This document shows positions 2,026 through 5,498 of a stretch of DNA of 64,000 nt, piece by piece. The position numbers and the translations under genes were made by a program. The stretch is from Rhodococcus sp. SBT000017. Lineage in GTDB: Bacteria; Actinomycetota; Actinomycetes; Mycobacteriales; Mycobacteriaceae. The DNA is taken from the NCBI RefSeq assembly GCF_003688915.1, contig NZ_REFU01000001.1, forward strand, positions 4,278,001-4,342,000, given 5' to 3'. Within the stretch, counting starts at the first letter, position 1. Each line of letters begins with the position of its first letter. The notes under the pieces are model-generated. The model was not told where the DNA came from and made no database searches. It saw nothing but the letters and a program-made list of their open reading frames with translations.

Positions 2026-2826
2026 ATGCTCCTCGCGATCGATGTGCGCAACACCAGCACCGTGGTCGGTCTGTTCACCGGCACGGGCGATCACTCGAAA
2101 CTGCTGCGAGATTGGCGAATTCGAACCGACCCGCATGTGACGGCCGACGAACTGGCCTTGATGCTGCGCGGTCTGCTGGGTGAGGACGCCGAAGGGATCA
2201 CCGGAGTGACTGCGCTGTCGACTGTGCCGTCGGTGCTGCGGGAGATGCGGACGATGCTCGCGCGCTACTGGGATCACGTGGTCCACGTGATGGTCGAACC
2301 CGGTGTGCGGACCGGTGTGCCGTTGCTGGTCGACAATCCCAAGGAGGTCGGTGCCGATCGTATCGTCAATACCCTTGCTGCACACGACTTGTACGGCACG
2401 GCGTGCATCGTGGTGGATTTCGGAACCACCACCTGTGTCGACGTCGTCTCGGCCAAGGGCGAATTTCTCGGCGGTGCCATCGCTCCTGGTCTCGAGATGT
2501 CGGCGTCGGCGATGTCCACTCGCACTGCCACGTTGCGTGAGGTGGAGATGATCCGGCCTCGTTCGGTGTTGGGCAAGAACACCGTCGAGTGCATCCAGTC
2601 GGGCACCATCTTCGGGTTCGCCGGTCTGGTGGACGGCCTGGTCGGGCGAATTCGACGAGAGGTTCCCGAGGTGTCGGGCGCGGACGTCGCGATCATCGGT
2701 ACCGGAGACATCGCGGCGCTGATCCTGCCCGAGTCGACGACCATCGAGCACCACGAACCCGACCTGACCCTCGAGGGGCTGCGTCTGGTCTACGAACGCA
2801 ACATGGCCAAACGGCGTCCACGGTGA
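2026..2826 (+). CDS. coaX: type III pantothenate kinase
   Basis: Phosphorylates pantothenate, the first step from vitamin B5 to CoA. The 266-residue protein has the ASKHA-type N-terminal motif LLAIDVRNT; the Gly of the usual DxGNT is Arg, as in mycobacterial CoaX. Also visible are [11 protein letters not shown] (about residues 103-113), [27 protein letters not shown] (phosphate and substrate binding) and the C-terminal GTGDIAALI. It starts four bases after panD. M. tuberculosis has the same panC-panD-coaX order, although there the type I enzyme CoaA is the essential kinase. The visible motifs look intact. Confidence 0.95.
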
Positions 2827-2867
2827 ACGACTAGCGCTTCGCGGTGCCGTGTGTCAGAATTCTCGGC

Positions 2868-2909
2868 GTGATGACGTGCATGGCCACCCAGGAGTGTTGT
2901 CGAGGCTGA
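2868..2909 (+). CDS. Cys-rich leader peptide before cysteine dioxygenase
   Basis: A 13-codon ORF starts at GTG 2868 (or ATG 2871) and reads MTCMATQECCRG after the first codon, ending at TGA 2907. A -10-like CAGAAT (2855-2860) lies seven bases before the GTG, the spacing of a leaderless transcript. Three of twelve residues are cysteine, with a CC pair two codons before the terminal Gly. The next gene is a cysteine dioxygenase at 2950. Cys-rich leader ORFs that sense cysteinyl-tRNA supply are known in mycobacteria, so an attenuator is the natural reading. Translation is inferred, not shown. Confidence 0.6.
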   Translation: MMTCMATQECCRG

Positions 2910-2949
2910 ACCCTGCCTCGTTCGTAACACACCCCTGGAGTAGAGCTTC

Positions 2950-3519
2950 ATGCTTTCCACACGTGTACTTTCTGTACCCTCCCGTACCCGATCGTCGTCG
3001 CGTTCGGTCTCGACGCTTCCGACCCGGTTGCGTCCACCCGACCTGCTGCGGATCACCGACCAGGGCGCATCCGACGTCCTCGAGGGCCTCTTCGATCACC
3101 TGCTTCCCGTCGGCGGTCGCTGGCCGACCGACGAGCGTTGGGCCGCCCGACTGCATTCCGACGACGACCTCGACGTCTGGTTGATCAGCTGGGTTCCCGA
3201 TCGATCCACCGAACTGCACGATCACGCGGGGTCGCTCGGTGCGCTCACCGTTCTCAGCGGCTCGCTTCTCGAATACCGTTGGGCTGGAACAGGACTGAAG
3301 CAACGTCGCCTCGACGCCGGTGATCAGGCGTCGTTTCCGCTCGGTTGGGTTCACGACGTGATGCACGATCCGGCGTCCGAACCGGCCGGCCCCACCCTCA
3401 GCGTGCACGCCTACTCGCCACCGCTCACGGCGATGTCCTACTACGAAGTGACCGAACGGTCCACGCTGCGCCGCACCCGTAGCGAGCTCACCGACGAACC
3501 CGAGAAGGCCACCGCATGA
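2950..3519 (+). CDS. cysteine dioxygenase family protein (cupin)
   Basis: Predicted non-haem iron enzyme that oxidises the thiol of cysteine (or a related thiol) to a sulfinate. Iron-ligand pattern: HDHAGS (His-x-His near residue 90), an adjacent acidic/aromatic segment LEYRWAG, and the C-terminal third ligand in GPTLSVHAYSPPL. The length of 189 residues fits bacterial cysteine dioxygenases. The ATG at 2950 has a GGAG ribosome site nine bases upstream (2937-2940); the first 30 residues are rich in Ser and Arg and may be disordered. It is coupled by ATGA to a rhodanese, giving a two-gene cysteine/sulfur catabolism unit, probably controlled by the upstream Cys leader. Confidence 0.88.
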   Translation: MLSTRVLSVPSRTRSSSRSVSTLPTRLRPPDLLRITDQGASDVLEGLFDHLLPVGGRWPTDERWAARLHSDDDLDVWLISWVPDRSTELHDHAGSLGALTVLSGSLLEYRWAGTGLKQRRLDAGDQASFPLGWVHDVMHDPASEPAGPTLSVHAYSPPLTAMSYYEVTERSTLRRTRSELTDEPEKATA

Positions 3520-3938
3520 CCATCGTCGAAATGCTCGAATCCGCACGCGAGACCATCGATCGAATGACCGTCTTCGAGCTGCGCGACGCCGTCGCCCGCG
3601 GAGCCGTCGTCGTCGACATCCGCCCCCAGGCGCAACGCGCCGTCGAGGGAACGCTGCCCGGGGCACTCGCCATCGAACGCAACGTCCTCGAATGGCGTCT
3701 GGACCCGACGAGCGATGCGCGCCTGGCGATCGCCGTCGACCACGACGTCGAGTGGATCGTCATCTGCTCCGAGGGCTACACCTCCTCGCTCGCTGCTGCG
3801 TCGCTCAAGCTGTTGGGTCTGCACAAGTCAACCGATCTGGTCGGCGGCTATCAGGCGCTGAAGTCGGCTGGGCTGCTCGGTGTGTTGACGCAGGCCAAGC
3901 ACTGCGTCCGTGAGGCGGAAGCCGTCGCAGCGCACTGA
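3516..3938 (+). CDS. rhodanese-like sulfurtransferase
   Basis: A single rhodanese domain of 140 residues. VVVDIRPQAQRAVEGTLPGALAI (about residues 31-53) is the conserved N-terminal half, and VICSEGYTSSLAAASL carries the active-site loop with the catalytic Cys near residue 86, followed by GLHKSTDLVGGYQAL. Proteins of this type move sulfane sulfur between thiols. The start codon overlaps the stop of the cysteine dioxygenase gene (ATGA), so the two are translated together. The likely role is handling sulfur released during cysteine degradation; this is inferred from context. A further Cys (CVRE) lies near the C-terminus. Confidence 0.9.
   Translation: MTIVEMLESARETIDRMTVFELRDAVARGAVVVDIRPQAQRAVEGTLPGALAIERNVLEWRLDPTSDARLAIAVDHDVEWIVICSEGYTSSLAAASLKLLGLHKSTDLVGGYQALKSAGLLGVLTQAKHCVREAEAVAAH

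Positions 3939-3974: not shown

Positions 3975-5498
<1,524 letters not shown>

Follow-up and report, generated by a model that had tools for sequence, protein, structure and literature searches.

The coaX-lysS interval and its short leader frame

The window, which is the whole 64,000-nucleotide stretch of Rhodococcus sp. SBT000017 DNA analysed here, contains a locus with the gene order coaX, leader, cysteine dioxygenase (CDO)-family gene, rhodanese gene and lysS. The named strains closest to it, Rhodococcus sp. 06-462-5 and a group around Rhodococcoides fascians, place it in a Rhodococcoides/Rhodococcus genome. The coaX gene (2026-2826) was identified by its Pfam profile, and the gene starting at 3975 is presumably lysS, a name given from its reading frame and position. 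The leader open reading frame (ORF), VMTCMATQECCRG, occupies 2868 to 2909 of the forward strand and consists of 13 codons and a stop. It starts with GTG (2868-2870), ends with TGA (2907-2909) and has cysteine at codons 4, 10 and 11 (2877-2879, 2895-2897 and 2898-2900), the last two forming an adjacent pair. From the TGA to the ATG of the CDO gene at 2950 there are 40 bases, within which lies the Shine-Dalgarno sequence GGAG (2937-2940). Upstream, an extended -10-like element, TGT-CAGAAT, is found on the forward strand at 2852 to 2860, with TGT at 2852-2854 and CAGAAT at 2855-2860. The latter begins 13 bases ahead of the GTG, and a leaderless transcription start at or next to 2868 is predicted. 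A generic sigma-70 scan of 2700-3100 yielded neither a full promoter nor a -35 match; thus, only the -10 part of the promoter is seen. An earlier sequence-only reading of this DNA had claimed a 13-codon frame with three cysteines and a pair near its end, a -10-like element at leaderless spacing and a location 40 bases before a cysteine dioxygenase/rhodanese pair, all of which were confirmed.

The CDO-family gene (2950-3519, forward strand) encodes 189 aa that match the Pfam profile CDO_I (PF05995) with 39.3 bits against a cut-off of 23, and it is the only PF05995 match in the window's genome. The best solved relatives of the protein are 8qfr/8qfl, 3eqe and 4qm8, entries named cysteine dioxygenase. 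Residues H90, H92, H135, S151, H153 and Y155 are invariant in 18 of 18 aligned rows; we take the three former to be the iron-binding histidines and the three latter to be the S-H-Y residues. With the profile score, these conserved residues point to membership in the CDO family. R63 is also invariant and R67 nearly so in the same 18 rows, and both are presumed candidates for the equivalent of the substrate-binding arginine of rat CDO. The rhodanese-domain protein (140 aa; 3516-3938, forward strand) matches PF00581 with 40.3 bits (cut-off 22.2), and the start of its gene overlaps the end of the CDO gene by 4 bases. A rhodanese gene on the same strand and at most 900 bases away accompanies CDO in 156 of the 158 distinct loci with a CDO identity of at least 55%. 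At L120 and L121 (genomes G004 and G025), the CDO match is split in two by an insertion of about 66 bases in the gene, and the frame stays open over 224 aa.

Elsewhere, the window's genome contains two further cysteine leaders close to sulfur genes, which adds to the case for attenuation. An HVDL leader of the Ms4527A type (L269, G000:C1:304722-304781; 35.1 bits, cut-off 45) lies where a reading frame of the sulfite/nitrite-reductase family begins. The peptide MLTSRRTVDLCRLGGCCCRCC (L270, G000:C1:2359211-2359267) precedes a gene for 187 aa, which is followed by a sulfurtransferase gene.

Occurrence of cysteine leaders among relatives and in other families

The comparison started from 202 loci with a CDO match, and a lax rule found a CC leader at 183 of these, a few wrong picks among them. 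Of 171 loci with a recognised ribosome-binding site, 118 were distinct, and 107 of those were kept by motif score, 11 being dropped. Some genomes are present under more than one locus, and 'distinct' counts are by sequence. A short ORF with a CC pair, a stop at most five codons away and a start at most 16 codons away was found in 139 of 156 distinct regions upstream of CDO, against 5 of 156 on the other strand of the same region, 1 of 156 in an upstream stretch and 0 of 155 in a downstream stretch. A strict form, GAG/GGG-CC-CG, recovered the leader at 125 of 156 distinct loci, with corresponding control counts of 0/156, 0/156 and 0/155. The frequency of the leader is, therefore, far above chance or control rates. 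Across the family, the motif GGGAGTGTTGTCGNGGCTGA was present with at most one mismatch in 108 of 201 genomes and 18 of 31 genera, against three of 201 genomes for the reversed pattern. Conservation of the cysteine codons across Rhodococcus, which the sequence-only reading had put forward as a check, was found: the strict motif occurs in 74 of 80 named loci spanning Rhodococcus, Rhodococcoides, Nocardia, Antrihabitans, Aldersonia, Prescottella, Mycobacteroides and others. The remaining six comprise five loci of Mycobacteroides or Mycobacterium sp. and one (L185) with a leader one codon longer.

The relatives' leaders share more than the cysteine pair. A start codon, GTG in 98 cases and ATG in four, lies exactly nine codons ahead of the pair in 102 of the 107 distinct leaders. 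The sequence CANNNT or TANNNT begins at -13 in 80 of the 107, while T at -16 and G at -15 are found in 95 and 92 of 102 leaders respectively. The cysteine pair is written TGTTGT in 104 of the 107 leaders and TGTTGC in three; in five genes of the window that were counted, TGC was used six times and TGT once. The peptide core QECCRG is conserved and the N-terminal half is variable, codon 4 encoding cysteine in the window's leader and another residue in many relatives. Multiples of three among leader lengths were considered as evidence of coding and dropped, since the leaders had been found as ORFs and the argument is circular. A loose CC-stop pattern, searched genome-wide, was uninformative.

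No leader was found by the lax rule at 19 of the 202 loci, namely seven in genus g30, five in g18, one in g29 and six others, two of which are distant CDO matches. Six of the seven g30 loci (L103 and L105-L109) have CDO and rhodanese fused in a single reading frame of 305-309 aa. At three of the five g18 loci (L067, L074 and L093), a readable short ORF with one cysteine and ending in RCRS lies upstream of the CDO-rhodanese pair, and the g29 locus reads QEC*. In genus g18, the CC leader also sits ahead of a distant rhodanese at the coaX-lysS position.

Leader motifs also occur away from any intact CDO gene, and 22 such loci were inspected. At each of them the leader comes after coaX and is followed, on the same strand, by rhodanese and then lysS. 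Twenty are without a CDO match, and the other two (L318 and L319, in genomes G135 and G147) have a match over 28-39 residues; at both, the leader hairpin is intact, the rhodanese is matched over 140 residues and the CDO gene is apparently being lost. At five of the 22 loci (two in g10 and three in g18), the rhodanese is distant, with 31-41% identity, and CDO is located elsewhere in the genome. Rhodanese, which follows the leader at all these 22 loci, is thus the most constant of its targets.

In other actinobacterial families, eight of 28 scanned CDO loci have a different cysteine-containing short ORF near the CDO start, and all eight have rhodanese downstream. The peptide is of type MRCCC in five, RRHIDLKRTCTAICR in two and HRLHIDLQRVLSCGC in one. 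These loci and the 22 without an intact CDO gene indicate that the leader is not tied to CDO. The MRCCC type (L230-L232, L234 and L235) is a five-codon ORF just before CDO and is an extremely short cysteine leader candidate. Among the other 20 loci, further cysteine short ORFs upstream of CDO read FDEHCQ/FDERCQ (L237 and L239), MQSCR (L240) and RRHVALLRVVSMACRSLG (L247), and L249 and L250 have short ORFs with runs of four or five cysteines; the remainder of the 28 gave no clear leader candidate.

RNA pairing and the calculated effect of a ribosome

Pairing between the leader and the CDO start was counted on two alignments, A2 with 42 of 58 short-class sequences and A3 with 41 of 49 long-class sequences, mostly from Nocardia. 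Left out of A2 were L005, L008, L009, L012, L022, L023, L031 and L121 as near-duplicates or odd, and L038, L078, L088, L096, L114, L115, L116 and L118 as divergent. Seven of the latter eight belong to g29, and the three TGTTGC leaders (L038, L088 and L096) are among the omissions; because these eight were omitted, the A2 figures exclude divergent types. L054, L101, L158, L163, L171, L180, L188 and L194 were left out of A3.

Three helices, given here in window coordinates on the forward strand, were found in A2. Helix H1 joins leader codons 4-6 to the CDO start-codon region, with GCATGG (2878-2883, columns 17-22) as its 5' arm and TCATGC (2948-2953, columns 91-96) as its 3' arm, the latter including the start codon at 2950-2952; 97.6% of cells are paired and three of the six pairs are changed on both sides. 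Helix H2 pairs CCAGG (2888-2892, columns 27-31) with CCTGG (2934-2938, columns 77-81), which overlaps the Shine-Dalgarno sequence; 98.6% of cells are paired. Helix H3 is formed by CGAGGC (2901-2906, columns 40-45), in leader codons 12-13, and GCCTCG (2915-2920, columns 54-59), with A-U to G-C changes in five of the 42 sequences. Leader codons 4 to 13 can, thus, pair with the Shine-Dalgarno sequence and start codon of CDO, with some compensatory changes; these occur in H1 and H3, and changes in H2 are one-sided only. Over the whole of A2, 98.3% of cells are paired, compared with 38-45% when the partners are slid, and the covariation score was reached by none of 500 shuffles. The number of pair types was matched by 42 of 500 shuffles.

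The long-class leaders gave a similar result: in A3, 95.5% of cells are paired, against 34-44% when slid, and no shuffle out of 500 attained the covariation score. Two other measures did not exceed the shuffles in A3: the number of pairs changed on both sides was equalled by 134 of 500, and that of pair types by 499 of 500. The outer helices are the same as in A2, with 88.6% (H1) and 99.0% (H2) of cells paired. Two further segments form a 3:4 helix, in which A-U is replaced by G-C in eight sequences, and a possible 2:3 hairpin of the Nocardia type has 99.6% of cells paired and no covariation. The segment scheme of the Nocardia-type leader resembles that of classical attenuators.

Folding of the window RNA gave a z score of -2.67, with one of 200 shuffles equally good, and leader duplexes compared with shuffled 3' arms gave a mean z of -1.6. 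A comparison of cognate with non-cognate duplexes between leader and ribosome-binding site carried almost no signal (mean -16.5 versus -16.2 kcal/mol; cognate rank 0.47), since the two arms hardly vary, and it was replaced by the pair counting on alignments. In the window and the aligned relatives, an RNA structure is predicted to hide the ribosome-binding site of the next gene.

The effect of a ribosome was calculated as the cost of opening the Shine-Dalgarno sequence and start codon, with a crude footprint from -15 to +12 of the A site. The mean cost was 13.7 kcal/mol in the short class and 14.6 kcal/mol in the long class with no ribosome; it was 7.0 and 8.7 kcal/mol with codon 4 in the A site, 7.5 and 9.3 kcal/mol with codon 10, and 7.4 and 9.6 kcal/mol with codon 11, a reduction by a third to a half. 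The values rose to 10.1 and 11.1 kcal/mol with the stop in the A site and to 13.2 and 13.6 kcal/mol two codons past it. Any ribosome on codons 4 to 11 opened the site about equally, whether at a cysteine codon or not. When the leaders were shuffled (eight mononucleotide shuffles each), the mean cost with no ribosome was 8.8 kcal/mol instead of 14.1 kcal/mol, and stalling lowered it by 0.5 kcal/mol instead of 5.8 kcal/mol; the native cost exceeded the shuffled mean in 99 of 107 leaders. The drop was below 4 kcal/mol in 32 of the 107 and absent in eight; the weak group includes six leaders of g29 (L078, L088, L096, L114, L116 and L118). At the 22 loci without an intact CDO gene, a drop of at least 4 kcal/mol was calculated for 11, and the native cost was above the shuffled mean at 14. 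An earlier measure, the mean unpaired probability of the Shine-Dalgarno sequence, failed to separate the ribosome states and would not have supported an attenuation model.

Proposed regulation of the operon and comparison with known leaders

The leader is likely to be a cysteine-responsive translational attenuator that is ON when Cys-tRNA is scarce. The operon mRNA would begin with the 13-codon ORF, which would be translated as a leaderless frame. With plentiful Cys-tRNA, the ribosome would reach the leader stop and depart, and leader codons 4-13 would then fold on the downstream RNA and hide the Shine-Dalgarno sequence and start codon of CDO. With scarce Cys-tRNA, the ribosome would wait at Cys4, Cys10 or Cys11 and keep the 5' arms open, so that the CDO-rhodanese message could be translated. 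Since a pause at a cysteine codon is calculated to open the gene, expression in cysteine shortage is predicted. The leader sequence is probably both coding and structural.

The sequence-only reading had also inferred that this operon is controlled by attenuation, with a logic that would be the reverse of that of usual amino acid attenuators. Attenuation by a conserved Cys-codon leader is well supported by the data above, but the reversed logic is not: because the CDO ribosome-binding site is hidden in the conserved hairpin and is calculated to be opened by a ribosome stalled at a cysteine codon, the operon would be ON in cysteine shortage, as biosynthetic genes are. Under the reversed scheme, plentiful cysteine would let ribosomes finish the leader and start again at the CDO gene after 40 bases, so that the enzyme would be made when cysteine is abundant. 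This suits the textbook role of cysteine dioxygenase and the CDO-family match of the gene. However, the site is calculated to be closed both with no ribosome and with a ribosome past the stop, the strongly structured gaps of 38-71 bases between stop and start are unlike re-initiation, and the leader serves rhodanese also where CDO is absent, which together make the scheme unlikely. It is similarly improbable that the leader governs Rho-dependent or intrinsic termination between itself and the gene. Rho was weakly suggested for the Cys leaders that precede cys operons in mycobacteria (Seliverstov et al., 2005; PMC1262725), and a clear calculated opening is lacking at half of the loci that have no intact CDO gene; yet the conserved pairing in the window and aligned relatives reaches exactly the Shine-Dalgarno sequence and start codon, and a scan of 2700-3100 found no terminator-like site.

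The least probable of the explanations considered, and a very improbable one, is that the short ORF is incidental and the RNA hairpin itself is the element, be it a riboswitch, a thermosensor or simply a repressor structure. Nucleotide conservation is very strong, and pairing accounts for much of the leader sequence, as such an element would have it. Against this, TGTTGT is identical in all 83 aligned rows (42 of A2 and 41 of A3); it lies outside the consensus helices in A2, and its last two bases are inside a helix in A3. The rows were selected for two cysteine codons, so that the presence of cysteine in each proves nothing by itself, and the only informative point is that TGT is used and not TGC. 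In addition, the CC leader is retained in genus g29 and at loci where opening of the hairpin is weak or not predicted, other families place different cysteine ORFs before the same operon, and the window has no Rfam match at the gathering threshold. Translational attenuation with expression in cysteine shortage, therefore, remains the preferred reading.

The class of mechanism is known from mycobacteria, and the CDO-rhodanese leader is probably an additional case. In M. smegmatis, stalling reportedly frees a hidden ribosome-binding site, and six loci are said to have responded. The attenuation mechanism of these polycysteine leaderless ORFs has been published (Canestrari 2020), as cited in PMC9094748, PMC9031893 and PMC13236596. 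According to these citing papers, short leaderless ORFs with neighbouring Cys codons stand there before sulfur genes, and the speed of the ribosome on those codons sets translation of the next gene. The window's leader likewise has adjacent Cys codons near its stop and precedes genes assigned to sulfur metabolism (CDO and rhodanese), and it is predicted to be leaderless and to act in the same way. It differs in its CDO-rhodanese target and in pairing that reaches the start codon, a comparison drawn through the citing papers, and a CDO locus may be among the six. Cysteine-rich upstream ORFs conserved in mycobacteria were described before cysA2, Rv0485 and nirA (Shell et al., 2015; PMC4633059); they are leaderless, as the window's leader is predicted to be, they resemble it in being enriched in cysteine, and they belong to different operons. 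The word dioxygenase is absent from the main text of that paper. Cys leader peptides were also described before mycobacterial and P. acnes cys operons and B. longum cbs (Seliverstov et al., 2005). As far as the excerpted text goes, these share runs of Cys codons near the stop; unlike the window's leader, they precede cys and cbs operons, and no conserved terminator hairpin was reported. In the passages seen of PMC9094748, PMC9031893, PMC13236596, PMC4633059, PMC1262725, PMC8557817, PMC8092301 and PMC3087709, no leader before a CDO gene is described, nor was one found in the literature searched, which covered few subscription journals and left the full text of Canestrari 2020 outside.

The NCBIfam models NF042936 (leader_Ms4527A) and NF042934 (cis_reg_atten) carry the description of a Cys-rich or a putative leader peptide. 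Outside the family, two leader candidates of HIDL type, each ahead of a CDO-rhodanese operon, match both models below the cut-off. The window's leader with its in-frame extension (2844-2906) had no match among the NCBIfam leader models up to E = 1, and eight relatives' leaders had none up to E = 5.

Expression in cysteine starvation would make poor sense if the CDO-family enzyme simply destroyed cysteine. Two resolutions may be offered: the enzyme belongs to salvage, or rhodanese is the main product and CDO is protective or accessory. We tentatively propose, as possible rather than probable, a sulfur-salvage module in which a CDO-family thiol dioxygenase and a rhodanese are made together when Cys-tRNA is short. 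The oxygenase would act on non-cysteine thiols or persulfides and feed sulfur back, and the annotation of cysteine disposal would be wrong for this branch. Rhodanese would be the constant output and the oxygenase an accessory dropped by several lineages that keep the switch. The constancy of rhodanese, at 156 of 158 distinct CDO loci and at all 22 loci where CDO is not intact, favours the view of a module, and the operon may serve sulfur relay or salvage and not cysteine disposal. A possible counter-example to expression in shortage comes from one rhodococcal proteome (PMC8557817), in which two rhodanese-annotated proteins were lower in sulfate-starved culture; either may or may not be the window's rhodanese.

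These results would extend attenuation by Cys codons to a large part of a sizeable actinobacterial family. They also provide a clear candidate hairpin in which the Shine-Dalgarno sequence and start codon are both paired to the leader, with a four-segment form and an alternative hairpin in Nocardia. Finally, the regulation yields a prediction of function, in that an enzyme annotated as cysteine-destroying is apparently produced under cysteine shortage.
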